From: Streptomyces sp. NBC_01454
GTDB lineage: Bacteria; Actinomycetota; Actinomycetes; Streptomycetales; Streptomycetaceae
DNA: 64,000 nucleotides
Direction: 5' to 3'
NCBI RefSeq assembly: GCF_036227565.1
Contig: NZ_CP109461.1
Coordinates: forward strand, 248,001-312,000
Both the position numbers and the translations under genes were made by a program. Below are positions 1 to 21,412 of this stretch, piece by piece (the stretch's first letter is position 1; each line of letters starts with the position of its first letter). The notes beneath the pieces are model-generated. The model did not search any database. It had not been told where the DNA came from and saw only the letters and a program-made list of their open reading frames with translations.

Positions 1-1
1 T

Positions 2-316
2 CCCATGATCATGCGCGACACGGTCTTCTGCGCGATTCCGCAGGACTCCGACCGCGACGCGATCAGCGAGTCCATCGTCCGGATGGTCAGCGAAGTCGCC
101 GAATACGTACCCGGCTACACCCTGCGCGCCGACCCGCAGTTCGACGACCCGCGCCCTGAATGGAAGGACCAGGCCCGGGTGGCCGTCTTCCTCGAGGTGC
201 GCGGCCGGGGCGACTATCTGCCGCCCTGGGCAGGGAATCTGGACATCATGACGGCCGCGGCCGCTCGCGTAGGCGAGCTGCTGGCGGACGCGAAGACCAC
301 GGCGGTGAACTCATGA
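2..316 (+). CDS. dmpF: acetaldehyde dehydrogenase (acylating), C-terminal part
   Basis: The coding frame is already open at base 2, so the gene starts outside the window. The visible 104 residues match the C-terminus of acylating acetaldehyde dehydrogenases (DmpF/BphJ/MhpF), including the near-terminal block [20 protein letters not shown]. The enzyme converts the acetaldehyde channelled from the partner aldolase into acetyl-CoA with NAD+ and CoA. Its TGA overlaps the ATG of the aldolase gene (ATGA at 313-316), which fits the known obligate complex of the two proteins. The NAD-binding part and the catalytic Cys lie upstream and cannot be checked. Confidence 0.9.
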
Positions 317-1365
317 CTCCCGAAACGACCGATGCTCCGCGCAAGCTGCGCATCACCGATTCGACCCTCAGGGACGGCTCGCACGCGATGCGGCACCAGT
401 TCACCGAGGAACAGGTACGCGGCGTCGTCCACGCCCTGGACAACGCGGGTGTCGAGGTCATCGAAGTGGCCCACGGCGACGGCCTCGGCGGCTCAAGTTT
501 CAATTACGGCTTCTCCAAGGTCGACGAGATCCAGCTGATCGGGGCCGCCGTCGACGAAGCCACCCGCGCGAAGATCGCCGTCCTGATGCTGCCCGGCGTC
601 GGCACGGTCACCGAGCTGAAGCGCGCCCACGCCGTCGGCGCGAGTGTGGCCCGCATCGCCACCCACTGCACCGAAGCCGACACCTCCGTCCAGCACTTCA
701 CTGCCGCACGGGCGCTCGGCATGGAGACGGTCGGCTTCCTGATGCTCTCGCACCGCATCGGCCCGGACGAACTCGCCAAGCAGGCCCGGATCATGGTCGA
801 CGCCGGCGCCCAGTGCGTGTACGTCGTCGACTCCGCCGGAGCCCTGGTGCTCGCAGATGCACAAGCCCGCGTCCAGGCCTTGGTCAAGGAGATCGGACAC
901 GAGGCCCAGGTCGGCTTCCACGGCCACCAGAATCTCTCCCTCGGCGTTGCCAACTCCGTGCTCGCCTACCAGGGCGGCGCCCAGCAGATCGACGGCGCTC
1001 TGTGCGCGCTCGGCGCCGGAGCCGGAAACTCACCGACCGAAGTGCTTGCGGCCACCTTCGAGCGCATGGGAATTCCCACCGGCGTCGACGTCGATCTGGC
1101 ACTGGCTGCCGCCCAGGACGTGGTCAAGCCCTTCATCCCGCGGCTGCCATGGATGGACCGCTCTTCGATCGTGCAGGGCTATGCGGGCGTCTACTCCAGC
1201 TTCCTGTTGCACGCCGAACGTGCCTCGGAACGCTACGGCGTGCCCGCCCACGAGATCCTCGAGCAGGTGGGCGAAGCCGGCTACGTAGGTGGCCAGGAAG
1301 ACATGATCATTGACATCGCTCTGCGGCTCGCTGAAGAGCGCGAGAAGGCGGGGGCCGATCGATGA
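313..1365 (+). CDS. dmpG: 4-hydroxy-2-oxovalerate aldolase
   Basis: 350 residues, a normal length for the DmpG/BphI/MhpE family of HMGL-like pyruvate aldolases. It cleaves 4-hydroxy-2-oxovalerate to pyruvate and acetaldehyde. The N-terminal block [17 protein letters not shown] carries the Arg-Asp pair used for catalysis and metal binding, and [15 protein letters not shown] carries the His metal ligands. An open frame runs further upstream to 160, but the ATG at 313 overlaps the stop of the dehydrogenase gene and gives the family N-terminus, so 313 is the start. Its own TGA overlaps the next ATG at 1362. The tight overlaps indicate translational coupling in one operon. Confidence 0.95.
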
Positions 1366-2141
1366 CCCGGAACATCGCCCACGCCGCCGCTGCCCTGCTG
1401 GAAGCAGAAGACAACCGCACCGACCGCACCCCGCTCACCGACGAGTGGCCCGAACTCGACCTGGCCACCGCGTACGCGGTTCAGGACGAAGCACTCCGCC
1501 GCAGGCTGGAGCGCGGCGAGAAGCTCGTCGGTGTCAAGCTCGGCCTGACCTCGCGGGCCAAGCAGGAGCGGATGGGCATTGCCACACCGCTCACGGCTTG
1601 GCTGACCGACGCCATGCTGCTGCCGACGGGCTCCCCGGTTCCGAAGGACGGGCTGATCCACCCACGAGCGGAACCCGAGATCGTGTTCGTCATGAAGGAC
1701 AGGCTCGCTGGTCCCGGTGTCACTGCGGCAACGGCCCTGGCCGCAGTCGGCTCCGTGCACGGAGGCATCGAACTGATCGACAGCCGCTACCGGGGCTTCC
1801 GCTTCACACTGCCCGACGTGGTCGCCGACAACTGCTCCTCCGGCCGTTTCGTCACCGGCCCCGTCGCCCAGCCGCCCGAGAAGATCGACCTCACGATGGA
1901 GGCCTGCCTGGTCGAGGTCGACGGCCAAGTCACCGACAGTGCCACCGGCGCCGCCGTTCTGGGGCATCCGGCTGAGGCACTGGCTTTGGCAGCCAACGAC
2001 CTCGCCCGCCGAGGCGTTGCGATCGAACCTGGCTGGCTGGTGCTGACCGGCGGCATGACCGACGCGGTCCCCGTACCGCCCGGCACCACCATCGCGGTCC
2101 ACTTCACCCACCTCGGTTCGCTCCATCTGACAGGAGGCTGA
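1362..2141 (+). CDS. dmpH: 4-oxalocrotonate decarboxylase (2-oxo-3-hexenedioate decarboxylase)
   Basis: 259 residues of the hydratase/decarboxylase family related to fumarylacetoacetate hydrolase. The blocks [16 protein letters not shown] and [17 protein letters not shown] are closer to DmpH/XylI/NahK decarboxylases than to the DmpE hydratase. The enzyme makes 2-oxopent-4-enoate from 2-oxo-3-hexenedioate. The next two genes, a tautomerase and a semialdehyde dehydrogenase, supply this substrate, which supports the decarboxylase call. The start overlaps the aldolase stop (ATGA). A 2-oxopent-4-enoate hydratase is still needed and is presumably encoded upstream of the window; a hydratase role for this gene itself is the main alternative. 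Confidence 0.85.
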
Positions 2142-2142
2142 C

Positions 2143-2361
2143 ATGCCGCTGATCGAAGCGATCCTGGTCGGCGGCCGTACACCGGACGGAATCCGCTCGC
2201 TCATCCCCGAGCTGACCGAGGGAGTCGTCAAGGCACTGGGCGTGCCGCAGCAGAGCGTTCAAGTCGCCGTTCGGGAGCTACCGAAGACGCACTGGGCGGC
2301 CGGCGATGTCACCGTCGCCGAACGCGAGACGGCAAGCCGGTTCGCGGAAGGACCGATCTGA
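2143..2361 (+). CDS. dmpI: 4-oxalocrotonate tautomerase family protein
   Basis: 72 residues, the usual size of 4-oxalocrotonate tautomerases. After Met removal Pro-1 (MPLIEAILVGGR) would be the catalytic base, and Arg at about position 12 is in the family place. It isomerises 2-hydroxymuconate to 2-oxo-3-hexenedioate between the dehydrogenase and the decarboxylase. An AGGAGG ribosome site ends 5 bases before the ATG. It lies one base after dmpH and its TGA overlaps the next ATG. The C-terminal half is less conserved than the N-terminus, so substrate specificity is inferred mostly from context. Confidence 0.88.
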   Translation: MPLIEAILVGGRTPDGIRSLIPELTEGVVKALGVPQQSVQVAVRELPKTHWAAGDVTVAERETASRFAEGPI

Positions 2362-3809
2362 TGGAGCTCTACGGCCACGTGATCGACGGCAAGGAGGTGG
2401 CCGCTGCCTCGGACGCCACCTTCAACACCGTTGATCCATACACCCGTCAGGCCTGGGCGGAGATCGCGCTCGGCGACAGCTCCGACGCAGACCGTGCGGT
2501 GGCCGCCGCCCGCCGGGCTTTCGACTCAGGCCCGTGGCCGCGGATGGGCGCAGCCGAGCGAGGCCGTATCCTGCACCGCCTGGCCGACCTGATCGAGGCA
2601 CACGCCGACGACCTCGGTCTGGCGGACACCCGGGACATGGGCAAGCCGATCGCCCAGTCCCGTGGCAACGATGTACCCCGCACGGCCGCGAACTTCCGGT
2701 TCTTCGCTGACCACGCACGGCTGTCCACCTCCGAGGCTTATTCGATGGACACCGGCCACCATGCCTACGCCCGTTTCGACCCGGCAGGGGTTGTGGCCGC
2801 GATCGCGCCGTGGAACTTCCCGATGATGCTGGAGTCCTGGAAGATCGCGCCCGCGCTCGCCTGGGGCAACACCGTGGTACTCAAGCCCGCCGAGGACACC
2901 CCCGTCTCCGCCACCCTGATGGCCCGGCTGGCGCTCGAAGCAGGAATGCCGCCCGGCGTGTTCAACGTCGTCCACGGCTACGGACCTGACTCGGCGGGCC
3001 AGGCCCTCACCGAGAATGCGGCCGTGGACCGGATCACCTTCACGGGCGAGTCGGGCACCGGCCGCATCATCGCCGAGGCAGGAGCCCGCAACCTCACCCC
3101 TGTCAGCCTTGAACTCGGAGGCAAGGGCGCCAACTTGGTCTTCGCCGATGCCGACCTGAACAACGCGGTCGAGTGGTCGATCCGGGCAGTGTTCACCAAC
3201 TCGGGCCAGGTCTGTCTCGCAGGCTCTCGGCTGTACGTCCAGCGGGAGATCTACGACGAGTTCCTCACCCGGTTCATCGCAGCGGCCGACGCCATGGTCA
3301 TCGGCGACCCCATGGACGAGACAACCCAGATCGGGCCGCTCGCCTCCGCGGAGCACCACGCGAAGGTCACCGGTTACGTGGACACCGTTGCGGAGCAGGG
3401 AGGCACGTTGCGAGCCGGTGGTCGCGACGACGGCTGGACGGTACGCCCCACGGTGATCACCGGCATGGGCCAGAACGCCCGGCACACCCGCGAGGAGATT
3501 TTCGGCCCCGTCGTCGTGGTGATCCCCTTTACCACCGAGGCCGAGGTGGTCGACCTGGCCAATGACACGCTGTACGGCCTCAACGCCATGTTGTTCACCG
3601 AGAACCTGCATCGCGCACACCGCGTCTCGGCCGCACTGCGTGCGGGAACCGTCTGGGTCAACTGCTTTTTCGTACGGGACCTGCGGGCGCCCTTCGGCGG
3701 CGTCGGTGACTCCGGAATAGGGCGCGGGGGAGGCACCTTCAGCCGTGAGTTCTTCACCGAGCCCAAGGCAGTGGTGATGCAGATTGCGCCGGAAGAGAAC
3801 GCACAGTGA
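2361..3809 (+). CDS. dmpC: 2-hydroxymuconic semialdehyde dehydrogenase
   Basis: 482 residues of the aldehyde dehydrogenase superfamily. The oxyanion Asn is in APWNFP (N152), the general base Glu in LELGGK (E251) and the nucleophile Cys in [10 protein letters not shown] (C285), so all catalytic residues are present. In this operon it should oxidise the ring-cleavage product 2-hydroxymuconic semialdehyde to 2-hydroxymuconate with NAD+, the entry of the 4-oxalocrotonate branch. The start TGATG overlaps the tautomerase stop. It is the last gene of the operon: 330 bases without a convincing gene follow. A related semialdehyde substrate is possible. Confidence 0.9.
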
Positions 3810-4140
3810 GGTTGGCGAGGGCATGGATACCGCGGCGCGGATGGACAACCAGGCCGCGATCGAGATCGGCACCAGAGATCTTTGGGACTGCTGAGGTTCG
3901 AAACGGCGGGTTCGTGCCGCGAACGTTTCCCGGCAAGCGCACGATCTGTTCACCCCGGACTCCGGACCGGTCGTGCTGGATCCCGGCAAGATCCCCTGTA
4001 TCGGCCGGCCGGTGATGAGTCCATTTGACACCGGTGATCGCCGATGAGTCAGTAGATGAAGCCGTTCATGACTCGTTATGGGACTGCCACGGATCAGGCA
4101 TGCAGAAGCCCGACATGTTTGGCAGCCCACACACGAAGGA
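3810..4140 (+). other. intergenic region without a recognised gene
   Basis: About 330 bases between the meta-cleavage operon and the SpoIIE-type gene. Short frames exist but none resembles a known protein. I see no strong terminator hairpin. The stretch is likely decayed sequence plus the promoter of the downstream regulator. Confidence 0.4.
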
Positions 4141-6987
4141 GTGACCGACGAAGTTGGTAATATTTTGCATATGAAAGCGCGACTGGATGCGCTTGCCAGT
4201 TCCGAAGACATCACGGAGGGTGATGCCTTCGGACTGGCTCTTCTGCACGCCGTGGCCGGACTCGATGGCTTTGGTGGAGCAATACACCTGTGCGCTCCCC
4301 CCGCCAGGCTGCGTCTGGTGTCTTCGGTCGGACTGCATCCGGTGCTGCGCCAATCCTGGGAGATCATTGACCTGGAGGACGAGCCGGTTCCCGCACGCGC
4401 CGTCCGCGAGGGCGATGGCGTGTGGCTGCCCACCGCTCCATCCCGGGAGCTTGCTCACTCCGCCGGCCGATCGCTGGACGACCGGCTCGGCAGCGGGGCC
4501 GCCGCTGTCCCTCTGCACAGGGGCGGCAGGGTGACAGGATCGCTCACGGTCCTGACCGGCGCTCATGGCGGACCGTCGCAGGAGCAGTGGGACTTTCTCC
4601 ATGCCGTGGCTGTGTGGGTCGAGCAGCAACTGGGACAGGGGCCACCCCCCGCCCAACGGTTCCGCTCGGACGGAAGCGATCTCCGGCAGGTGCTCAAGGC
4701 CGTCGAGGTCGGCTCATGGGACGTCGACCTCCGCACTGGCGAGATGCTCTGGGACGAGGCATGCATGGTCCTCCACGGCGTCGATCCGGTCGGCTTTGTG
4801 CCGCGAGTCGAGACGTGGCTGGAGTCCATCCACCCCGACGACCTGCCGCGGACGCTGGCCGCTGTCGAGACGGTGATCCAAAAACGCAATCTGTACGAGG
4901 CCGAGTACCGGACCCGGCGGCGCGGCGGCCTGTATGCCTGGATACGTGTCCGCGGCACCGTCGTGCTGGACGACCAGGGGCAAGCCATCCGACTGGTCGG
5001 CACCGTTTGGGACAGCAGCGAGTCCCGATCCGCCTTGGACGCCCTGGGCCGCGCCGTGCGCCATATGCACGACGGGTTCCTCTCGGTGGACGGTGAATGG
5101 CGGCTCACCTTTGTGAACGAGGAAGCGGAACACATTCTGGGCGCTTCAGAGGAGGAACTGCGTGGCCGCGTCCTGTGGGAGCTGTCCCCGCTGCAAAAGA
5201 TGACGACCCTTGAAACCGCGTTCCGCGAGGCTGCCGCCAGGGATGCGCCTGTCGGCTTCGACGTTCGGATGCCAGATTCGGAACGCGACTACCATCTGCG
5301 GCTCGTCCCAGGGCGGGGCGCACGCGCCGTCTACTTCACGGATGTCACCGAGACCCTTCGCTACGAAGCCGAGCGGTCCGAGGCTGCACAGATCGCCGCT
5401 GAACGCGGCGCTTGGATCTCCGAGCTGACAGCGGCGCTCGCCAAAGCGACGACAGCGCGCGACGTGGTCGATGCCCTCGCCCAGCGGGTTCTGCCGTACG
5501 GAGTCACGGGCGTCAAAATGCAGATCATCGAGGGCGATCAGCTGTATGACATCGGTGAAGCCGGTCGGCCTCTAGCCTCCCTCGACCGGGGGGCAAGTTA
5601 CACGATGGCGCCCTGCGAGCCTGTCTGGGACGCGGTGCTGACCAAAGAGCCGGTCCTCATCTCCTCGACCCAGGAGTTCTTGGCGCGCTACCCGCAGGCA
5701 GCAGAACACCTGCGGGAGCCCAACCAGCAAGCATGGGCGTTTGTGCCTCTGGCCGCGTCCGGACACACCTTCGGCGTCTGCGTCCTGGCCTTCGACCAAC
5801 CCCGGGTATTCAGCGAGGACGAGTGCGCCCTACTGACGGGAGTCACCGCACTGGTTGCCCATGCCCTTGAGAGGGCGCGACTCTACGACGCCGAGCACAC
5901 CCGGTCCAGGGAACTGCAGCGGAGCCTGCTCCCCCAGGAGCTCCCCGACCTGTCCGCATGCACGATCGCCGCACGCTATATCCCTGGCGAGCAGGATATG
6001 GATGTGGGAGGTGACTGGTACGACGTCATCCCACTCTCGGCGGCGCGAGTCGCACTCGTCATCGGCGACGTAATGGGGCATGGCCTGTCCGAGGCCACCA
6101 CCATGGGCCGACTGCGTACTGCAGTCCACACTCTCGCCGCCCTCGAGCTTCCTCCCGAAGAGATCATGGGACATCTCAACGACATCGTCAGCGGCCTCGG
6201 GGAGGACTCGTACGCCACCTGCCTGTACGCACTCTATGATTCCACCGACCGCAGCTGCACTATTGTTTGCGCTGGCCACCCACCACCAGCAGTGGTCCAT
6301 CCCGACGGCTCTGTGCACTTCCTCGACGTACCCCGGAATCCGCCGCTAGGCGCTGCGGAACCGCCGTTCGAGACGATGGAGCTGGACCTACCTGCGGAGA
6401 GCCTGCTGGTGCTGTACACCGACGGCCTGGTCGAATCGGCTGAACGCGACATCGATCAAGGCATGCTCCGACTCACGCAGCTTCTGCACACGGCCCAGAG
6501 CGAAGATTTGCACCGACTGTGCAGCGCGTTGACCGCCGATCTGCTCCCGGCCGGGCATCCCAGCGGGGATGACGCTGTCCTTCTCGTTGCCAGCGTCCAC
6601 GCGTTGCCGGCCGATCACATGGCCTCTTGGCTGCTCCCGGAGGACCCACAGGCCGCAGGCCGGGCTCGCGAATTGATCCGGGACCAGCTTTCCGCCTGGG
6701 GACTGGACGATCTGACGATGACCACGGAGCTGCTGGCCAGCGAACTGGTGGGGAACGTCATACGCCATGCGCAGGGGCCACTGCACTTGCGGCTGCTGCG
6801 TGATGAGGAGCTTCTCTGCGAAGTCTCCGACGGCAGCCTCACCATGCCCCGTATCCGCCGGGCTTTGGAGACAGATGAAGGAGGGCGGGGGCTGCAACTG
6901 GTCGCTGCGCTCTCACAACGGTGGGGCGTCCGCTACACGGCCACCGGAAAGTGGATCTGGACAGCTCAGCCGCTTCCCGGCAGGTGA
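4141..6987 (+). CDS. multidomain SpoIIE-type PP2C phosphatase with GAF, PAS and HATPase domains
   Basis: About 950 residues. In order I read a GAF-like domain (about 10-165), two PAS domains (about 190-290, with VGSWDVDLRTGEMLW, and 300-405), a second GAF (about 425-580), a SpoIIE/PP2C phosphatase core (about 600-815, with VGGDWYDVIPL, VIGDVMGHG and a terminal GDDAVLLV metal motif), and a C-terminal GHKL kinase-like domain (SELVGNVIRHA and GGRGLQLV). This is the actinobacterial type that dephosphorylates anti-anti-sigma factors and may phosphorylate them through the last domain. The sensory ligand is unknown. The start is uncertain: ATG 4078, GTG 4141 and ATG 4171 are in frame and none has an ideally spaced ribosome site. 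It stands alone, so a link to the aromatic operon is only positional. Confidence 0.85.
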   Translation: MTDEVGNILHMKARLDALASSEDITEGDAFGLALLHAVAGLDGFGGAIHLCAPPARLRLVSSVGLHPVLRQSWEIIDLEDEPVPARAVREGDGVWLPTAPSRELAHSAGRSLDDRLGSGAAAVPLHRGGRVTGSLTVLTGAHGGPSQEQWDFLHAVAVWVEQQLGQGPPPAQRFRSDGSDLRQVLKAVEVGSWDVDLRTGEMLWDEACMVLHGVDPVGFVPRVETWLESIHPDDLPRTLAAVETVIQKRNLYEAEYRTRRRGGLYAWIRVRGTVVLDDQGQAIRLVGTVWDSSESRSALDALGRAVRHMHDGFLSVDGEWRLTFVNEEAEHILGASEEELRGRVLWELSPLQKMTTLETAFREAAARDAPVGFDVRMPDSERDYHLRLVPGRGARAVYFTDVTETLRYEAERSEAAQIAAERGAWISELTAALAKATTARDVVDALAQRVLPYGVTGVKMQIIEGDQLYDIGEAGRPLASLDRGASYTMAPCEPVWDAVLTKEPVLISSTQEFLARYPQAAEHLREPNQQAWAFVPLAASGHTFGVCVLAFDQPRVFSEDECALLTGVTALVAHALERARLYDAEHTRSRELQRSLLPQELPDLSACTIAARYIPGEQDMDVGGDWYDVIPLSAARVALVIGDVMGHGLSEATTMGRLRTAVHTLAALELPPEEIMGHLNDIVSGLGEDSYATCLYALYDSTDRSCTIVCAGHPPPAVVHPDGSVHFLDVPRNPPLGAAEPPFETMELDLPAESLLVLYTDGLVESAERDIDQGMLRLTQLLHTAQSEDLHRLCSALTADLLPAGHPSGDDAVLLVASVHALPADHMASWLLPEDPQAAGRARELIRDQLSAWGLDDLTMTTELLASELVGNVIRHAQGPLHLRLLRDEELLCEVSDGSLTMPRIRRALETDEGGRGLQLVAALSQRWGVRYTATGKWIWTAQPLPGR

Positions 6988-7186: not shown

Positions 7187-8077
7187 GAGGAGCTAACAGA
7201 AAGCTTCTGTGTCGCCATGTCTCGCTTCCTGGTGGCTCGTTGGACATGTCATGGGGAAGGGGAAGGGTCCGCCGTGGCTGGTGACGGATGACTTGTGGGC
7301 GAGATTCGAGCCTCTGTTGCCGGTCCGTGAGCGCAGATCTCGCAATGCTGGGCGTCTGCCGCTGGATGACCGCCGGTGCCTGCAGGGGATCCTGTTCGTG
7401 CTGCATACCGGCATCCAATGGGAGTGGTTGCCACAGGAGCTCGGGTTCGGGTCGGGGATGACGTGCTGGCGCCGGCTGCGGGACTGGAACGAAGCTGGCG
7501 TATGGGACCGGCTCCACCAGGTGCTGCTGACCGAATTGCACCAGGCGGGAAAGCTGGACTGGTCCCGGGCGGTGATCGACGGGTCGCATCGGCAGGCGCG
7601 TCGGGGCGGCCCAAAACAGGTCCGAGTCCGGTCGACCGTGCCAGGCCGGGCTCGAAGCACCACGTGATCACCGACGCACAAGGCACCCCGCTGGCCATCA
7701 CGCTTACAGGTGGCAACCGGCATGATGTCACCCAGTTACTGCCCCTGCTCGACGCGATACCGCACATCAGGGGCCGCACCGGCAGACCTCGCCACCGGCC
7801 CCGGCAGCTGTTTGCCGACCGCGGTTACGACTTCGACAAGTACCGCCGTCTGCTGTGGAAGCGCGGGATCAAGCCGGCCATCGCCCGACGAGGGGTGCCG
7901 CACGGCTCCGGGCTCGGCGCCGTCCGCTGGGTGGTCGAGCGCACGAACGCCTGGATTCACGGCTTTCGCAGGCTGCGAATCCGCTGGGAGATCCGCGACG
8001 ACGTCCACGAGGCATTCCTCAAACTGGCCTGCTGTGTCATCACCTATCGACGCATCCAAGCATTCTGTTAGCTCCTC
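7187..8077 (+). mobile_element. IS5-family (IS427-group) insertion sequence, intact
   Basis: The ends are a perfect 15-bp inverted repeat: GAGGAGCTAACAGAA at 7187-7201 and its complement at 8063-8077. The element is 891 bp and is flanked by the trinucleotide TTA on both sides (7184-7186 and 8078-8080), the type of duplication made by IS427/IS1031 relatives. Perfect ends and target duplication indicate a recent insertion. Confidence 0.92.
7251..8071 (+). CDS. IS5-family transposase, two frames joined by a likely -1 frameshift
   Basis: The first frame (7251-7667) encodes the N-terminal part with the DDE Asp block AVIDGSHRQARRGGPK. The second frame (ending 8071) continues with GPSPVDRARPGSKHH, the second Asp block QLFADRGYDFD and the Glu region RWVVERTNAWIHGFRRL. 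Reading CCA AAA and then slipping back one base at the A run near 7612 gives PKTGP, which matches the uninterrupted family sequence. Programmed -1 shifting is known in IS5-family IS427-type elements, so the element may be active. A sequencing error would look the same. The start ATG at 7251 gives the typical WLVTDDLWARFEPLLP N-terminus. Confidence 0.88.
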
Positions 8078-8252: not shown

Positions 8253-9089
8253 TCAGAATTCTCCGGAAAGGAAGGTAGACGCGAGGGAGGCGAAGCTTTC
8301 GGCGTGCTCGATCTGGACCCAGTGCCCGCACTGAGCGAATACGTGCAGTTGGCTCTTGGGGATCAACTCGAGCAGCCTGCGGCTTGTGGTCAACGGAATC
8401 ACCTGGTCATCGCGCCCGTGCACAATGAGCGTTTCGTGTGGGAGGGCGGCAATGTCACTTTCGGGGACCGCCATGGCAGTGATCTTGTCCTGCCGTGGCG
8501 CGGGGAACATTGCCGCATACGCTTCATGGACACCAGGGCGGGTCGAGGCTCGGTATCGAAGCTCGGCGAGCTCGTCGGTGGCGAAGCGTGGGTCGTAGGC
8601 GAAGACGTCGAGCAGACGACGCATGTTCTCGACGGACGGTTCGTAGCCCCAGACCGCGTCCAACCCGGGGGTGAGGGGGAACAGCACGCCGACGCTGCCC
8701 ATCAATACCAGCCGGTCCACCCGATCGGGGTGGCGGGTGGCAAGCCTCAGTGCCAATGATCCGCCGAAGCTGTTGCCGACAATCGATACCCGTTCGAGGC
8801 CCAGCGCGTCGAGGAAGCCCACGAGGTGGGCCAACCAGTTCTCGGCGTCGTACTGCACTCCTTCGGGGCGTTGTGTGTAGCCGAAGCCGAGGATGTCGGG
8901 GGCGAGGACGCGATGTCGTTTGGCAAGTTCGGGAATGGTAAGGCGCCAGTTGGCCCATGCCGACACACCGGGCCCCGAGCCGTGGATCAGCAGCACCGGG
9001 TGGCCGGAGCCGTAATCGTGGTAGTTGGTCGCGACGCCGTTCACGTCGACGGTCAGGCCGATCTCTGGTGATTCCGCATTGCCTGTCAT
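8253..9089 (-). CDS. dmpD: 2-hydroxymuconic semialdehyde hydrolase (alpha/beta hydrolase)
   Basis: 278 residues, the usual length of DmpD/XylF/TodF C-C bond hydrolases. The nucleophile elbow GNSFGG gives S107, the acid is D228 in HGRDDQVIP and the base is H256 in CGHWVQIEH. The oxyanion segment LLIHGSGPGVSAWANW is that of meta-cleavage product hydrolases. It would cleave 2-hydroxymuconic semialdehyde (or an alkyl/aryl homologue) to 2-oxopent-4-enoate and a carboxylate, the hydrolytic branch that bypasses dmpC, dmpI and dmpH. It lies downstream of the TetR-fusion gene on the same strand, 368 bases away. Exact substrate is not determined. Confidence 0.88.
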   Translation of the reverse strand: MTGNAESPEIGLTVDVNGVATNYHDYGSGHPVLLIHGSGPGVSAWANWRLTIPELAKRHRVLAPDILGFGYTQRPEGVQYDAENWLAHLVGFLDALGLERVSIVGNSFGGSLALRLATRHPDRVDRLVLMGSVGVLFPLTPGLDAVWGYEPSVENMRRLLDVFAYDPRFATDELAELRYRASTRPGVHEAYAAMFPAPRQDKITAMAVPESDIAALPHETLIVHGRDDQVIPLTTSRRLLELIPKSQLHVFAQCGHWVQIEHAESFASLASTFLSGEF

Positions 9090-9457
9090 GGGAGCTCCTT
9101 ACTGCCCGCATGGGCGTTGGCTTGGGTGTCTTCCCACTCGATACGACACGATCGTAGAACCTGGGCCAGGGTGATACAGCGCCTTGCCGACCGCGGTCCT
9201 CGGTGGTCTGGGCGAGCGACGCCCTGCCGTTGTGTTTCTCGTGGCGCCGAATTCGGCTGGTGCAGTTGCCGCGCCACCAGGCACGTCACCGGCACCGGTC
9301 TCGCTGGAGGCGTTTCATCGCCCGTGGCGCCCAGTTCGTGACCCCGTGATCCGGTCCGGCACGGCCGCCGGCCCCGCTCAAAGAGTCGGTCCCTAGGAAG
9401 ATGAGCCGCCCCACAGAAATCAGCACCTTGGCGGTAAAGGCTGAGGTGGACTGCTCG
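9090..9457 (-). other. intergenic region upstream of the hydrolase gene
   Basis: About 370 bases with no recognisable gene on either strand. A GGAGCTCC segment just before the hydrolase ATG supplies its ribosome site. The region is long enough to hold a separate promoter for the hydrolase gene, but I see no clear copy of the GAAGTAA palindrome found upstream of the dioxygenase gene. Confidence 0.4.
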
Positions 9458-10855
9458 TCACTGCCCCGATGGGCCACCTGCCTCGGGGTCATCTCGAGTG
9501 AGATGTGACCACATGCGCTCTTCGATCTTGCCGGCCCACACAGCTCTGGCAGCTATCTCCGCCGCACTGAATTCGATCGCCTCGCTGCCAGTCGACCGTA
9601 CGGCCAGATCGATCTCGCTGGCGGTCTCCAGAAATTGGGCAAGGACGACGGCTCGAGGCAGCGAATTTCCCACAATGACAGCGCCGTTGCCGCGAAGCAC
9701 GATCGCCGGCGCGTCACCAAGGGTGTCCGCCACCCCGTCCGCTGCTTCCGCAGTGCGAACCAGCCCTGGATCGGACCACAGCGGCGGTCCCGGTGCGAAG
9801 TACGAGCCGGTCCCGTCGAGCGGGCGGGCGGTGAGGCCCAGAACCGACAGCGCCCGCACCGCGGTGGGCAGTACCCTCGCGATTCCGCCTACGTCGGCTC
9901 TACGACGGTAGATCGCTTGGTGCATCCGCACCTCGCCCGGGACATCGTCGGGCAGCTCGCCTTCGACCGGGACGAGGATCCCGGGCTGTCGCGTGATGTG
10001 CCCGAGCGGGACGACGGGCGTGACGAGGAATGTGGACTCGTCACGACGGATCGAGCAGTGCCCGTACGCCGTGACGAGCCCCGCGCTCGACAGTGCCCGG
10101 GCTGCAGTCCGAAGCGTCCGGTGCAAATCCCGCTCCGCGTCCGGCGTTTCGACGCGGCCTGCGTCGGTACGCTTCGCCAGGATCGATCGGCCAAGTTCGG
10201 CCAGGAAGGCGTCGTACCGCTTACGGAAGGCAGCTGATTCTGGAGACTGTCCGGTGATGACCTGCGTGAGTGGGCGGAGGGCAGACGGGAAGATCGCCAG
10301 TGCCATGAGGGCAACGAGCAGGAGATCGGCGTCGAGCGTCGGGGGGATGTGCCCGGCGCGTTGCGCCTGTCGGATCAGCTCGATCTCTCTGACATACATA
10401 TCGGCCCTGACCGCGGAGGCCATGACGTCAGTGCCCGGACGGTCCATGCTCACCGACAGTGCATCCCACGTGACCAACCGGACGAAGGCGAGGCTGCCGG
10501 CCAGGGACTGGTGAAACGCCCCCAGGAGCTCGTCGGCTTGTCCCTCGTCGTCGACGACGGCCTCGATCGCGTCGAGAACGGCGTTGTGCTTCTTACGGAA
10601 CGAGTCCCCGAAGACTGCCTCGTACAGCGCTTCCTTGCTGCCGAAGTGCTGATAGAGCGCGCGAACGTTGACACCGGCACGGGCCGCCATGGCCTCGACC
10701 CGGGCACCCGCGTATCCCTTTGCCGTGAACTCGTCGAGCGCAGCCGAGAGAACGCGCTCACGAGTCTCGGCGCCGTCCCGCCGGCGCCGAGGACCTTGCT
10801 CCGAAGACCCACTCGACAAGTGCCTCGCCTCTCCGATAAGTCGGTCCGCCGTCAC
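9458..10855 (-). CDS. TetR regulator fused to a class II aldolase-like domain
   Basis: 465 residues in one uninterrupted frame. Residues about 28-75 are a TetR helix-turn-helix (RVEAMAARAGVNVRALYQHF), followed by a TetR-type helical region to about 225. Residues about 240-445 resemble class II aldolase/adducin proteins (EVRMHQAIYRRRADV and VLRGNGAVIVGNSLPRA). Compared with fuculose-phosphate aldolase, the Glu equivalent is kept (E308) but the three zinc His are replaced by R327, L329 and N390. The second domain is therefore probably a ligand sensor or oligomerisation module, not an enzyme. The gene starts 25 bases after the dioxygenase gene, so they are likely co-transcribed and the protein may regulate its own operon. 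Such a fusion is unusual to my knowledge. Confidence 0.85.
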   Translation of the reverse strand: MTADRLIGEARHLSSGSSEQGPRRRRDGAETRERVLSAALDEFTAKGYAGARVEAMAARAGVNVRALYQHFGSKEALYEAVFGDSFRKKHNAVLDAIEAVVDDEGQADELLGAFHQSLAGSLAFVRLVTWDALSVSMDRPGTDVMASAVRADMYVREIELIRQAQRAGHIPPTLDADLLLVALMALAIFPSALRPLTQVITGQSPESAAFRKRYDAFLAELGRSILAKRTDAGRVETPDAERDLHRTLRTAARALSSAGLVTAYGHCSIRRDESTFLVTPVVPLGHITRQPGILVPVEGELPDDVPGEVRMHQAIYRRRADVGGIARVLPTAVRALSVLGLTARPLDGTGSYFAPGPPLWSDPGLVRTAEAADGVADTLGDAPAIVLRGNGAVIVGNSLPRAVVLAQFLETASEIDLAVRSTGSEAIEFSAAEIAARAVWAGKIEERMWSHLTRDDPEAGGPSGQ

Positions 10856-10880
10856 CGTTCACGCACGCTATCGCACCACG

Positions 10881-11951
10881 TCACGGCCGGTAGACCGCGA
10901 ACACCTTGCACGAATTGAAGACGTACGACTCCTCGAACACGCTCCAGTCCGGCTTCGTGTGGCCCAGCTCTTCCATCGCGCCGACAAGGGTGTACCAGTT
11001 GAGCAGTTCCTGCTGGCCACTGTTCTCGATCGCCGCGGTGGTACGGTCCCGCCAGACGTCGTACTTCCCGTTCACCATCGCGTCGTACAGCTCACGGTCG
11101 GCGGCAACGTCGGGCTGGAGCCTCCACGTCTTGTCTGTGTTGAAGGCATGGCTCCAACTTGACGACGCGACGAGCGCAACCCGCAGGTCAGTGGCGGCAA
11201 GCGCCCGCACGACAGCGCGGCCGACCTCCATGAACCGCCACGGCGGCGGCGACGGCGGGTCCAGCTGCTCGGGCTTTTCTCCGAGAGACACGGTGAAACC
11301 CTTGTTCGCGACAACGAGGGATCCGTAGCAGTTCAGCGGGAACGCAACGACCGGGTAGGGGAACCCTCGACGGTGGTAGTCGAGGTAGAGCAGCGTGTTC
11401 AGGAACGCGTGCGCGAACCCCTCCTGGTGAAGGGGCTTGTATGCGTACGAGACGTCGATGCCCTGCTCGAGGAGCTGCTTCGCGAGCAACCGTGCAACCT
11501 CGGGCGCTCCCTTCACCTCGAAGGTCGTGTCAGGGCCCTCATTCCATACGTTCGGCCTGTCATCCATCGCCGACGAGTGCGCCATGTTGGCCCACGGCTT
11601 GACCGTCATGTCGGGATAGGCCAGGACCGCGTAGGGCGGGATGATGTCCTCGCGGAAGTTCTCGTACTGGTCATCGCCCCAAACCACAACGACGTCCGGG
11701 TTGAACGCGTCGAGTTCGGCCCGACAGTGGTCCAGCCCAGCCACCAGACCCTCGCGGTGGCGCGCTGCCGCAGCCCTGCCCTCGTCGGAGCCCCACTCTT
11801 CCCTCATCCGCTTCGGCCACGAAGCCACGTCCTTCGCGTGCTCGGGCACGAGCGGGTCTTGCAAGCTGTTGCGCAGGAGCCACGCCATGTCTTCGTCCAC
11901 CCCTGACAGGGGTGGGTAATGCGTGACTCCGATTCCGAGAATCTCGCCCAC
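10881..11951 (-). CDS. LigB-type (class III) extradiol ring-cleavage dioxygenase
   Basis: 356 residues from the GTG at 11951, which has GAGGA seven bases upstream; the frame is open further upstream but that part does not look like protein. The N-terminal GIGVTHYPPLSG carries a His placed like the first iron ligand of LigB. The segments DVVVVWGDDQYENFRED, HQEGFAHAFLNTLLYLDY and PLNCYG fit the catalytic-subunit family. These Fe(II) enzymes cleave catechol-type rings such as protocatechuate, gallate or 2,3-dihydroxyphenyl compounds. It is the only ring-cleavage enzyme in the window and sits with the hydrolase and the TetR-fusion gene. Whether it feeds the meta pathway at 1-3809 is inference. 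Confidence 0.85.
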   Translation of the reverse strand: MGEILGIGVTHYPPLSGVDEDMAWLLRNSLQDPLVPEHAKDVASWPKRMREEWGSDEGRAAAARHREGLVAGLDHCRAELDAFNPDVVVVWGDDQYENFREDIIPPYAVLAYPDMTVKPWANMAHSSAMDDRPNVWNEGPDTTFEVKGAPEVARLLAKQLLEQGIDVSYAYKPLHQEGFAHAFLNTLLYLDYHRRGFPYPVVAFPLNCYGSLVVANKGFTVSLGEKPEQLDPPSPPPWRFMEVGRAVVRALAATDLRVALVASSSWSHAFNTDKTWRLQPDVAADRELYDAMVNGKYDVWRDRTTAAIENSGQQELLNWYTLVGAMEELGHTKPDWSVFEESYVFNSCKVFAVYRP

Positions 11952-11989
11952 GGTGTTTCCTCGCAATCGCGGCGGCCGATCAGATGAGG

Positions 11990-12007
11990 GAAGTAAACAC
12001 TTACTTC
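11990..12007. promoter_or_regulatory. palindromic operator candidate upstream of the dioxygenase gene
   Basis: A perfect 7-bp inverted repeat, GAAGTAA-ACAC-TTACTTC, lies 39 bases upstream of the dioxygenase start codon. It has the size of TetR-family operators, and the TetR-fusion gene is the second gene of the same transcript. A related half site, TGATTACTTC, lies at 12078-12087. Confidence 0.6.
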
Positions 12008-12072
12008 GTTTCTGCGTCAACAGGCCAGGAAAGATGCAGGTTGCAAGTCTTCTCGGTAGCCGGAAGATCAAA

Positions 12073-12420
12073 TCAGTGATTACTTCGGTTCCTGTCGCCG
12101 CCGAAGGCGTACAGCCCCGTCGGGCTCGTCGCGACGACGAAGCCGACGCCGGTCCGGTGTCGGACGCCCTCGGCGCGCGGCTGCAGTGACGCAGACGGGT
12201 CGGAGGGACGCAGGGCCGCCAGGGGCTCGGGGGATTGCGCGAAAGTCTCGGCAACGGCAAGCGCCCGCTCGCGGACCTTCTCCTCGCTGGTGTGCCGGGC
12301 CTGCCAGACGAGCGCCGCCGCCCCAGCGGCGACGAGCAGCAGCACCACCGCCACCAACAAGACGAGCATCTGGCCGGCGATGCTGCGCAGGGCCGGTGCC
12401 GACCGCAAACGCCGACCCAC
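12073..12420 (-). pseudogene. N-terminal fragment of a sensor histidine kinase
   Basis: The first 115 residues resemble the start of a CitA/DcuS-type sensor kinase: a short basic leader, one strong membrane segment (MLVLLVAVVLLLVAAGAAAL), the linker SEEKVRERALAVAETFAQSP, and the beginning of a periplasmic sensor domain (TGVGFVVATSPTGLYAFG). The frame stops just where the PAS-like sensor begins. No dimerisation or kinase domain follows, and the tail runs into the dioxygenase promoter region. It is a decayed remnant. Confidence 0.6.
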
Positions 12421-17438: not shown

Positions 17439-19365
17439 GTGTGTCCAGAAGGTGATTGTGAGGTTCTGATGTAGAAGACGGAAACGAACAGTCGCCATGT
17501 TGTTGTGGAGATGAAGGTAGGTCCTTCGACATCGGCATGCAGGTGCAGGTGTCAAACCACCATGAGCTGCTGCGGTGAATGAGCCGTGGTGGTGAGCGTC
17601 ATGGAAAAGCCGTACTGAATGCGGCAGGTGGGGGTTGAGAAGGCGAACGCAAGTGAACCACTGATGACGTGTCGTAAAGCTTAGATGACATCAAAACCAG
17701 GGCCTCAATGCTGTCCTGGGACAAGCCAGACGAGAACCTGTCTATTGGTCTGGCGGTGTCCGGCATGAAGGTGGCGCGAGCTCAGTCCGGGCTTCACAAC
17801 GGAACTGGAGAACTCCTCGACGCGAAACCGCGATCCACGGGTTGACGTGGCTCGCGAGAGGAAGAGGCTCAAGTGGCGAAGAGCCATGAGAGCCGGAGTA
17901 CCGGTCGCGCGTCGGGAGGGCGGAATGTCCCGTAGTAGTGATGAAACCTCCGTAATAGAGGCGGAGCGAAGGGGACGTGTTGTTGGGTGTCGATCGGCGA
18001 TCAACCAGAGATGGGAGGAATCGGATGGTCGAGACGAGATCAGCGAGCAAGCCGTTTGATATTCCGAAACGGCTGATCTGGAACGCATACCTGAAGGTCA
18101 AGGCCAACAGGGGAGCGGCTGGGGTGGACGGGCAGTCGTTAGCGGAGTTTGAGCAGGATGAGAAGAACAACCTGTACAAGCTGTGGAATCGACTCTCCTC
18201 GGGAAGCTACTTCCCCCCACCCGTGAGAGCGGTTGACATTCCCAAAACCGGCGGTGGGACTCGGAGCCTTGGGGTTCCGACCGTGGCCGACAGAATCGCC
18301 CAGACGGTAGTGGCCATGACGTTGGAGCCAGATGTGGAGCAGATCTTCCATCAGGACTCGTATGGCTATCGCCCGAGGCGGTCCGCGCTGGATGCGGTGG
18401 AGACGTGCAAGCAGCGGTGCTGGAGGCATCCCTGGGTGATCGACCTTGATATCCAGGGATTTTTTCGACAACGTGCCGCACGCCCCCATCATCGCGGCAG
18501 TGGAAAGGCATACCAATCTCTCGTGGGTTCTGTTGTATGTGAAGCGATGGCTTGTCGCCCCTGTGCAACAGCCCGACGGAACGCTCGTCAGACGGGAAAA
18601 GGGAACTCCTCAAGGATCTTCTATTTCCCCGTTGTTGTCGAATCTGTTTATGCACTACGCCTTCGACGCGTGGTTGGCTCGGGAGTACCCGGCGATCAGG
18701 TTCGAGCGGTACGGCGACGACGCTGTGGTGCATTGCGCCAGTGAGAAGCAGGCGAATTTCGTCCGCGACATCATCGAGCGCAGGTTGCTGCAGTTCGGAT
18801 TACGTCTCCATCCGGAGAAGACCAGGGTGGTGTACTGCAAACAGGAAGGTCGTGAACGGGAGTTCCCGGTCACGGAGTTCACGTTCCTGGGGTACACCTT
18901 CCGTCCTCGGGCGGCCCGCTTGCGGGATGGGAGGCTGAAAACCGGCTTCCTTCCAGCAGTGAGCGAAACAGCCATGAAGTCCATGGCGAGGACTATCCGG
19001 AGTTGGCGACTGGGGCGCTGCACCGAGCTGAGCTTTCGGGAGATCGCCGCGATGATCAACCCTGTCGTGGCGGGATGGATCAATTACTATGGGCGCTTCT
19101 ACAAGTCCAGATTGATCAGGTTCCTGGAACAGCGGATCAATCCGTTCCTGGTGAAATGGGCCCGGAGGAAGTACAAACGGTATCGTAGTGCCTCAAGGAA
19201 GGCCCGGAGGAGGCTGGCTGAGATTGCCTCAGCATTCCCGGGTATGTTCGCTCACTGGAAGCATGGCGCATTGCCCACTGGTTCAACAATGGGAGCCGTG
19301 TGAGTCGCGAGGTTCACGCACGGTTCTGAGAGCGGCGGTGGGTGAGATTCCCGCCGCCGACTCAC
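17439..19365 (+). mobile_element. group II intron 1
   Basis: The 5' end GTGTGTCC at 17439 fits the GUGYG consensus. Domain V is visible near 19296-19331 (GAGCCGTGTG ... CGCACGGTTC), followed by a domain VI stem (GGCGGTGGG / CCCGCCGCC) and an ACTCAC 3' end at 19365. The last one or two bases are uncertain (19364-19366). It carries a reverse transcriptase/maturase frame. It is inserted in the IS3 orfB on the strand opposite to that gene. Confidence 0.85.
18025..19303 (+). pseudogene. group II intron reverse transcriptase/maturase with one frameshift
   Basis: The N-terminal half (from ATG 18025, with GGGAGGAATC upstream) reads RT domains up to VIDLDIQGFF. A tract of six T near 18460-18465 has one base too many; the second frame (from about 18446) continues DFFDNVPHAPI with the catalytic YGDD box (FERYGDDAVVHC) and the maturase region (INPVVAGWINYYGRFYKS), ending at 19303 inside domain V. 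The close relative at 54155-55411 has an intact frame here. The shift is in a homopolymer, so a sequencing error, a mutation or recoding are all possible. No HNH domain is present. Confidence 0.85.
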
Positions 19366-20050: not shown

Positions 20051-21412
20051 CAGGGCTCCGTCAAGTTCCTGGCTTGCGTGGAGGGTTGACGATCAGGCCG
20101 GTAGGGGCGGATGGCAGAGCAGGCACGGGGGTTCGTGATCATTGTGGTGTCGAAGCCAGATGATCACGAGGACGTCCCGTGCCTGCTGTTGCAGCTTCCC
20201 CTATCCCTGCCGTGCTGGAGAAGCTGGGGCCGCTGGATGCGGACCGGATCGCTGACCTGGGCCCCTACCTCGAATCGGTTCCGGATCCGCGCTCACGCCG
20301 GGGCCGGTGGTACTCGCTGACGGCGATCTTGCTGATGTGTGCTTGCGCGGCCGTCTGCGGTGCGAAGAGCATCGATGAACTCGCCGAGTTCGGCGAGCGG
20401 GCCACGAACTCGCTGCTGGCATCCCTCGGGGTACGCCGTCACCTGCTCGGCTGGCGGCGCAGCCCCAAGCCGGTCACTCTCGGACGCGTCCTTCAGGCAC
20501 TTGACGGCGACGCCCTGGACCAGGCTGTGGGCGCCTACCTGGCCGACCGGCACCGCATCACCGCGTCCGTGGACATGCCCGAGACCCGATCGCGGCAGAT
20601 CATCGCCGTGGACGGCAAGGCCCTCACGGGCTCAGCCCGCCTGGCCGCGCCGCGGCGCCACCTGCTCTCGGCGGTCACCCACGACCGCGTCGCCACGATT
20701 GCCCAGGTCGAAGTCGGTGCGAAGACCAACGAAGTGCGCCACTTCAAACCCCTGCTGGCACCGCTCGACCTCGCCGACACCGTCGTCACCTTCGATGCCC
20801 TACACTCGGTGAAGGCCAACATCACCTGGCTGGTCGAGACGAAGAAGGCCCACTACATCGCCGTCATCAAGACCAACCAGCCCACCGCCTACGCCCAACT
20901 CGCCGCCCTGCCCTGGACCTCGATCAAGGTCCAGCACACCGCCACCGCCCACGGCCGCCGCGAGTCCCGCTCGATCAAAACCTGCGCTATCGCCGACAAC
21001 CTCGGCGGCATCGCTTTCCCCCACGCCCACCTCGCCATCCGGGTCCACCGCCGCCGCAAGCCCACCGGCCGGCCCGAAACCCGCGAGAACGTCTACGCGG
21101 TCACCAGCCTCGCCGCCCATCAAACCCGCCCCATCGACCTCGCCGCCGCCATTCGCGGGCATTGGGGAATCGAAAATTCTTCCCACTACATCCGAGATGT
21201 CACGTTCGCTGAGGACGCCTCGACCATTCACACCGGCACTGCACCCCGCGCCATGGCCACCATCCGCAACCTCGCCATCGGCACCCTGAAGATCCTCGGA
21301 GCCGACAACATCGCCAAGACCACCCGCGCCATTCGCCACGAACCCGAACGAGCACTCGCCATCCTGGGCATCACCAACAACCCAGACACTCACGGAACTT
21401 GATCAAGCCCTG
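20051..21412 (+). mobile_element. ISAs1-family insertion sequence, intact
   Basis: Ends CAGGGCTCCGTCAAGTTCC (20051-20069) and, read inward, CAGGGCTTGATCAAGTTCC (21394-21412) match at 16 of 19 positions. The 9-bp sequence GCATCGATG is duplicated at 20042-20050 and 21413-21421. Length 1362 bp. It lies within the first codons of the IS3 orfB. Confidence 0.95.
20179..21402 (+). CDS. ISAs1-family transposase
   Basis: 407 residues, full length for ISAs1 (H-repeat) transposases. The N-terminal DPRSRRGRWYSLTAILLMCACA is the DDE_Tnp_1-associated domain. The triad is visible in IIAVDGKALTGSAR (first Asp), TVVTFDALHS (second Asp) and GHWGIENSSHYIRDVTFAED (Glu). There is no frameshift or stop, and the terminal repeats are present, so it could be active. 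Confidence 0.95.
   Translation: MPAVAASPIPAVLEKLGPLDADRIADLGPYLESVPDPRSRRGRWYSLTAILLMCACAAVCGAKSIDELAEFGERATNSLLASLGVRRHLLGWRRSPKPVTLGRVLQALDGDALDQAVGAYLADRHRITASVDMPETRSRQIIAVDGKALTGSARLAAPRRHLLSAVTHDRVATIAQVEVGAKTNEVRHFKPLLAPLDLADTVVTFDALHSVKANITWLVETKKAHYIAVIKTNQPTAYAQLAALPWTSIKVQHTATAHGRRESRSIKTCAIADNLGGIAFPHAHLAIRVHRRRKPTGRPETRENVYAVTSLAAHQTRPIDLAAAIRGHWGIENSSHYIRDVTFAEDASTIHTGTAPRAMATIRNLAIGTLKILGADNIAKTTRAIRHEPERALAILGITNNPDTHGT

Follow-up and report, generated by a model that had tools for sequence, protein, structure and literature searches.

Parts of the report on Pseudomonas reinekei MT1 (PMC6362003) describe dhbB as the gene of a class II aldolase that takes part in decarboxylation of the product formed by ring cleavage of 2,3-dihydroxybenzoate, and describe DhbA, the dioxygenase that acts before DhbB, as type I; they give 375 nm as the absorption maximum of 2-hydroxymuconate semialdehyde. 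In the p-cumate pathway, CmtD acts at the equivalent step, between the dioxygenase CmtC and the hydrolase CmtE, and in LB400 a cymR homologue sits between cmtD and cmtE (PMC5224996, in part). Enzymes that double as transcription factors appear to be few. Specifically, the relevant part of PMC8249747 names five E. coli enzymes that are also transcription factors, including those of the PutA, BirA and NadR type, and PutA is described there as acting on its own gene.

Extra domains on TetR proteins are not new as such, given that 70 different companion domains have been counted on TetR/AcrR proteins; the word "aldolase" is absent from the main text of that survey (PMC5882156, in part). We found no description of a TetR-aldolase fusion in the parts of the open-access literature searched. 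Within these bounds, an earlier note on this DNA holds good in stating that no one-component regulator of such make-up has been described. Here we analyse a gene for this kind of fusion in a window of Streptomyces DNA (the whole stretch of 64,000 nucleotides that was analysed, to which all unassigned positions refer). Its sequence suggests a single protein with two possible tasks, conversion of a pathway intermediate and control of the operon that encodes it.

Results

A TetR regulator fused to a class II aldolase-fold domain

The gene of the fused protein occupies positions 9458..10855 on the minus strand and encodes 465 amino acids from a GTG start at 10855. It forms one continuous frame with no internal stop, as had been read from the letters before. 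Residues 1-232 (10160..10855, minus strand) make up the TetR regulator part. Specifically, Pfam matches a TetR_N helix-turn-helix (PF00440) at residues 36-81 (10613..10750, minus strand; E 7.8e-14, 51.6 bits against a cut-off of 24) and the effector/dimer domain TetR_C_21 at residues 123-210 (10226..10489, minus strand; E 2.1e-9, 38 bits against a cut-off of 26.2). The helix-turn-helix noticed previously is present, although its range, given as about 28-75, was a few residues off. With both a helix-turn-helix and a C-terminal effector/dimerisation domain recognised by profile, this half can be assigned to the TetR family.

The C-terminal part, residues 242-465 (9461..10132, minus strand), is a class II aldolase/adducin-fold domain without metal ligands, recognised by Pfam, a structural model, a fold match and family alignments, and is a probable ring-cleavage-product decarboxylase. 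Aldolase_II matches residues 248-415 of the fused protein (E 6.9e-18), and the Pfam scores of TetR_N, TetR_C_21 and Aldolase_II all exceed their curated cut-offs. The AlphaFold model of the fold is confident at residues 241-460 (pLDDT block means 94-99), with the class II aldolase fold spanning about residues 242-455. Its best structural match by Foldseek is 2z7b (E 4.7e-13, target TM 0.83), the 3-hydroxy-2-methylpyridine-4,5-dicarboxylate decarboxylase of Mesorhizobium loti, a decarboxylase of class II aldolase fold that is also the best profile match. Domain search and structure prediction alike bear out the aldolase/adducin-like region previously placed at about 240-445, and the predicted fold places the domain in the class II aldolase/adducin superfamily. 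The model was built on 50 family rows, of which three cover the TetR part, and this half of the model is weak (pLDDT block means 36-84). Because the TetR part is poorly predicted, its fold rests on Pfam and on sequence similarity to TetR proteins of known structure. The best NCBIfam match of the fused protein is the 3,4-dihydroxyphthalate decarboxylase PhtC (NF053537), whose equivalog cut-off of 200 bits is not reached by a score of 65.4 bits.

The same fusion, adjoining a LigB-type gene, occurs in S. cellulosae NRRL B-2687 (L039; also G177) and in Pseudonocardia kujensis (L038). A strain-specific loss of a stop codon between two genes is therefore ruled out. These two fusions are 63% and 67% identical to the window's protein over nearly its whole length, and the window's TetR part is 66% identical to that of P. 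kujensis and 64% to that of S. cellulosae. Among the three fusions, identities reach 64-73% for the TetR parts, 65-70% for the aldolase-like parts and 74-80% for LigB, and the linker between the halves varies in both sequence and length. Values of dN (0.21-0.28) against dS (0.88-1.26) yield a dN/dS of about 0.2-0.3 in both halves, which by this sequence comparison are under purifying selection.

The nearest relative of the aldolase-like domain, from Amycolatopsis tucumanensis (L037), is 80% identical in the domain, and its neighbouring LigB is 87% identical to that of the window; the corresponding LigB values are 74% for P. kujensis and 74% for S. cellulosae. In A. tucumanensis the gene stands alone directly after ligB, with a likely GTG start that overlaps the ligB stop, and no TetR was found in its frame or in its 14.7 kb surroundings. 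A tree of a 17-row set that includes the long branch L026 joins the window with A. tucumanensis (SH-aLRT 90), P. kujensis with S. cellulosae (91), and all four together (97), and the LigB and TetR identities agree with this grouping. The simplest history suggested by the tree is one ancestral fusion followed by TetR loss in Amycolatopsis. Alternatively, two gains of related TetR parts are possible, and the order of gain and loss depends on the branches with SH-aLRT 90 and 91.

No wider set of fusions emerged from the searches. Among the best 80 of 335 relatives, a TetR part lies in the same frame only in P. kujensis and S. cellulosae. Matches were obtained in 4 of 392 same-genus genomes, two of them fusions with the window's own included, and in 13 of 396 genomes of the phylum and 3 of 200 of the family, where, judged by match span, the window's own protein was the only fusion. 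Of 297 genomes in the family of Pseudonocardia, 70 matched, with one fusion as judged by match span and, for the best 20 loci, also by frame. Twelve of 72,556 plasmid records matched, none over 80% of the fused protein. The genome-collection searches ran at set E-limits and scored only a few candidates per genome. A phage origin was considered and rejected: the fused protein had no match in a phage collection, and the LigB protein had no relative in a viral-contig scan.

Nine loci present an unfused arrangement, with the aldolase-like gene standing alone and a separate TetR-like ORF about 1 kb downstream of it. In locus coordinates these ORFs lie at 8620-9348 (L086, L087, L089, L095, L096 and L100), 8529-9323 (L094 and L097) and 2728-3456 (L082).

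A subfamily with Arg and Asn at metal-ligand positions

In a phmmer alignment to the Thermus fuculose-1-phosphate aldolase 2fk5, E308 (9932..9934, minus strand) lies opposite the catalytic Glu of class II aldolases, and R327 (9875..9877, minus strand), L329 and N390 (9686..9688, minus strand) lie opposite the first, second and third metal-binding His. This alignment confirms the previous comparison, in which the Glu was kept and His92, His94 and His155 corresponded to these three residues. The fused protein thus lacks the three metal His residues of metal-dependent class II aldolases of the FucA type.

This absence is not peculiar to the fusions. The main family alignment comprises 50 rows, namely the three fusions and 47 stand-alone proteins, and His is missing from the three ligand positions in every one of them. 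R327, N390, E308 and H312 are invariant throughout, and position 329 is occupied by Met (31 rows), Gln (14), Leu (4) or Phe (1). In a second alignment of 17 rows from Proteobacteria and Actinobacteria, some of them more distant, the Arg and Asn are again invariant and the second ligand place lacks His in 16 rows; the exception that has it is the distant long-branch row L026. Because the three His residues are missing from all 47 stand-alone rows, the ligand loss is old and decay after the fusion is ruled out. The earlier note's description of a "degraded" fold in this protein is not supported, given the loss in 50 of 50 rows and the invariance of R327 and N390. Rather, the alignments indicate that the His residues were lost before the fusion arose and that their absence is the mark of a widespread subfamily, in which Arg and Asn occupy two of the ligand positions without exception.

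Ordinary members that retain the His residues coexist with this subfamily; examples are P0002, from the window's own genome, and L126, from that of Pseudonocardia. The subfamily profile matches 37 solved chains, none named as an Arg/Asn member, and the three that were aligned keep the His residues. Among the 47 stand-alone rows, 29 columns are invariant; the window's protein keeps all 29, that of P. kujensis 28 (differing from the stand-alone consensus at one position) and that of S. cellulosae 25 (differing at four). Residue 347 (codon 9815-9817) is His in 46 of the 50 rows and Asp in the window, in P. kujensis, in S. cellulosae and in the unfused A. tucumanensis protein. By this distribution, Asp at residue 347 is a trait of the clade and not of the fusion.

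Gene context

A LigB-family class III extradiol dioxygenase-like gene (10881..11951, minus strand; Pfam LigB 2e-12 on the longer ORF 10881-12260) lies directly upstream of the fusion gene. It ends 25 bp before the fusion gene, and the two are probably co-transcribed. The LigB-like protein reads DDQYENF at the place where the aligned dioxygenase 8k04, a weak match, reads PDHYNGF, and the Gln of the former motif is common to the LigB relatives in A. tucumanensis, P. kujensis and S. cellulosae. We take the His of the 8k04 motif to be an iron ligand. Because Gln stands where the aligned dioxygenase has His, it is uncertain whether this partner carries out the ring-cleavage step, and its sequence may represent an unusual dioxygenase branch.

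On the other side, 368 bp downstream of the fusion gene, is the gene of an alpha/beta hydrolase resembling HsaD/BphD C-C bond hydrolases (8253..9089, minus strand; Pfam above cut-off, NCBIfam HsaD and BphD below their equivalog cut-offs), which need not belong to the operon. Genes of a lower meta pathway, including one for a hydratase, lie at 1-3809 and just before the window. Those within the window, all on the plus strand, comprise the end of an acylating acetaldehyde dehydrogenase gene (1..316; Pfam AcetDehyd-dimer on L117 13412-14317, running into the window), a 4-hydroxy-2-oxovalerate (HOA) aldolase of the DmpG type (316..1365; NCBIfam TIGR03217 above cut-off), a DmpH-like 2-oxo-3-hexenedioate decarboxylase (1362..2141; best NCBIfam match below cut-off, no Pfam match at 1e-5), a probable 4-oxalocrotonate tautomerase recognised by reading its sequence (2143..2361), and a 2-hydroxymuconic semialdehyde (HMS) dehydrogenase-like protein (2361..3809; Pfam Aldedh, best NCBIfam match TIGR03216 below cut-off). 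Except for the HOA aldolase, the lower-pathway NCBIfam matches fall below equivalog cut-offs. Together, ligB 25 bp upstream and these genes at 1-3809 uphold the earlier link of the fusion to aromatic ring cleavage. A search of the window's genome found no second subfamily member, the only other match in the aldolase part being P0002, which keeps its His ligands. For decarboxylation, the search thus leaves the fused domain as its sole candidate.

The surroundings of the cluster, on a 639 kb contig, are mobile, with DDE_Tnp_1 transposase genes at 7376-8071 and 20179-21402 and a reverse-transcriptase domain at 17977-18744. A PAS/GAF/SpoIIE-phosphatase protein is encoded at 4078-6987, between the lower-pathway genes and the transposase.

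The context of the relatives was surveyed at the best 80 of 335 loci with up to 7 kb of flank each. A VOC ring-cleaving dioxygenase-like gene is present in 57 of the 80 loci, and the same search found none in 23. Aldehyde dehydrogenases resembling the window's HMS dehydrogenase occur in 40 of these loci, an FAH-type hydratase in 33, an HOA aldolase in 21, an acetaldehyde dehydrogenase in 20, a hydrolase resembling that of the window in 10, and LigB in four. Three Pseudomonas loci (L043, L071 and L110) share the order VOC gene, aldolase-like gene, HMS dehydrogenase-like gene, hydratase, acetaldehyde dehydrogenase and DmpG (HOA aldolase), which fits a dhb-type pathway. From this gene order we infer that L043 and its like are DhbB. 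Some other stand-alone genes among the best 80 sit in operons unlike the dhb order.

Of 299 Burkholderiaceae genomes, 30 contain a member (E 1e-30), with a VOC gene within about 1.5 kb at all 30 loci. We could not identify CmtD among these members, which are only 58-64% identical to the L043 protein and among which no cmt operon was recognised. A dioxygenase neighbour in a meta-cleavage cluster is what characterises the context of DhbB/CmtD-type decarboxylases, and it is found here; membership of the fused domain in this class is supported by that context.

A candidate operator before ligB

The candidate operator GAAGTAAGTGTTTACTTC, a perfect 7+4+7 palindrome, lies at 11990..12007 (minus strand), 39-56 bp before the ligB start. 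Nothing else in the 9.46 Mb genome matches it with two mismatches or fewer, and the reversed control pattern has no match. A copy with three mismatches is located 62 bp further up, at 12069-12086, and one of 100 window shuffles had as many matches as these two. In P. kujensis, two related sites before ligB have zero and two mismatches to a 13-base pattern, with 0.01 expected in 14.7 kb, an expectation that is flattering because the pattern was written after seeing one of these sites. The single three-mismatch site of S. cellulosae, some 210-225 bp upstream, is weak (0.77 expected by chance in 20 kb). In A. tucumanensis, which has no TetR, no operator match was found before ligB, and the one three-mismatch match lies elsewhere. 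Inverted repeats of 7 bp also occur before ligB in A. tucumanensis and P. kujensis at unrelated places, with none in S. cellulosae, and symmetry of the palindrome is therefore weak evidence by itself. As a pattern, the candidate operator fits a single-target autoregulator.

A scan of 9000-12300 found no consensus promoter (0.3 expected). A minus-strand ORF at 12073-12420, whose sequence resembles the beginning of a membrane sensor protein and looks truncated, reaches the ligB promoter region.

Discussion

As a whole, the locus is best read as encoding a protein akin to a trigger enzyme, in which a decarboxylase is joined to the repressor of the ligB operon that it belongs to, and we give this reading somewhat better than even credence. 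It comprises decarboxylation, repression, DNA binding, an effector and coupling between the halves, all of which we infer. The C-terminal domain would be a working member of the metal-ligand-free branch of the class II aldolase fold and would decarboxylate a carboxylated catechol ring-cleavage product, a beta-keto-acid-type compound like 3-carboxy-2-hydroxymuconate semialdehyde. The carboxyl of the latter is beta to a (tautomeric) ketone and could leave without a metal if the enolate charge is stabilised. Arg327 and Asn390 could stabilise this charge in place of the lost metal. Bound at the palindrome 11990-12007, the TetR half would keep the ligB operon, its own gene included, repressed and would release the DNA once a pathway metabolite binds. 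Because an effector domain is matched within the TetR half itself, the signal might come through either pocket.

A stricter form of this mechanism is also conceivable, though we regard it as doubtful. In that form, a covalently joined TetR and active metal-free decarboxylase would use the enzyme's own substrate as the signal, and occupancy of the catalytic site would be passed to the DNA-binding dimer such that the operon is induced only while the intermediate is present. At the opposite extreme, the halves might share a transcript and a polypeptide only, with the TetR half answering its own ligand and the enzyme working independently. This would be the trigger-like arrangement stripped of allosteric coupling, and thus a sub-case of the best explanation. 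Each half matches a whole domain and is under purifying selection, the linker varies in sequence and length, and the enzyme half stands alone in A. tucumanensis. We consider such an absence of crosstalk very improbable, even though nothing decisive speaks against it.

The decarboxylase reading is favoured because the window's protein keeps 29 of 29 invariant residues and because, of the solved structures, the decarboxylase 2z7b matches best by both profile and fold. Also in favour of the overall reading are the ring-cleaving dioxygenase genes beside many stand-alone members, the unfused A. tucumanensis gene directly after ligB, the lack of a second candidate in the genome search, the low dN/dS of both halves and the operator pattern. 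Conservation, however, cannot separate an enzyme from a sensor, since pocket residues would be retained in a sensor too. The aldolase-fold domain might therefore be a sensor only, derived from a metal-free decarboxylase family, that binds the ring-cleavage product without turnover, whereupon the TetR half releases the DNA. This is the idea of the earlier note with a different ancestor. In its favour, enzyme-fold sensor domains occur in other regulators, the pocket residues are kept, and the fusions of P. kujensis and S. cellulosae deviate at one and four of the 29 family-invariant positions. Against it, the window's protein deviates at none of these positions, the TetR half already has a TetR_C_21 match, A. 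tucumanensis has the domain as a separate gene in the equivalent place of its operon, and no other subfamily member was found in the genome for the decarboxylation step. Recruitment as an effector-binding domain, as the earlier note proposed, is thus not the simplest reading, and we judge a pure sensor to be unlikely. A working enzyme could also perform other chemistry on the ring-cleavage product, such as tautomerisation, isomerisation or hydration, an alternative that seems to us quite improbable. It would accommodate the loss of metal ligands across 50 rows, the range of solved members of the fold (aldolases, epimerases, decarboxylases and iron oxygenases) and those stand-alone genes among the best 80 of 335 that sit in operons unlike the dhb order. 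It is at odds with DhbB being reported, in part of PMC6362003, as the decarboxylase of its pathway, and with a best NCBIfam match that is a decarboxylase, though at 65.4 against 200 bits.

If the TetR version of a trigger enzyme is true, it would be a simple means of sensing unstable ring-cleavage products with one self-contained protein, and it would draw attention to a widespread subfamily in which metal ligands have been swapped for Arg and Asn. The fused protein of this genome and its unfused counterpart in Amycolatopsis, with domains 80% alike, form a natural pair that makes both functions directly testable.

Among known systems, the DhbB and CmtD enzymes act at the step proposed for the fused domain, decarboxylation of a ring-cleavage product, and the gene neighbourhoods of some relatives fit this likeness, which is drawn from gene order and from the description in parts of the published reports. 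They differ in standing alone, whereas the present domain shares its chain with a TetR part and has a LigB-type gene as its neighbour. The Mesorhizobium loti decarboxylase keeps its metal His residues, unlike the fused domain, and the chain that was matched consists of an aldolase-fold protein on its own. CymR and other TetR repressors likewise place a TetR protein in an aromatic operon, but CymR, as described in part of the cmt literature, is a separate protein, whereas here the regulator and an enzyme-like domain form one chain. The trigger enzymes PutA, BirA and NadR unite an enzyme and a transcription factor in one protein, as described in the source excerpted above, and the present fusion may do likewise. 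The five trigger enzymes named for E. coli in that part of PMC8249747 are, by their names, without a TetR module or an aldolase-fold decarboxylase, the two modules that this Streptomyces protein appears to combine.
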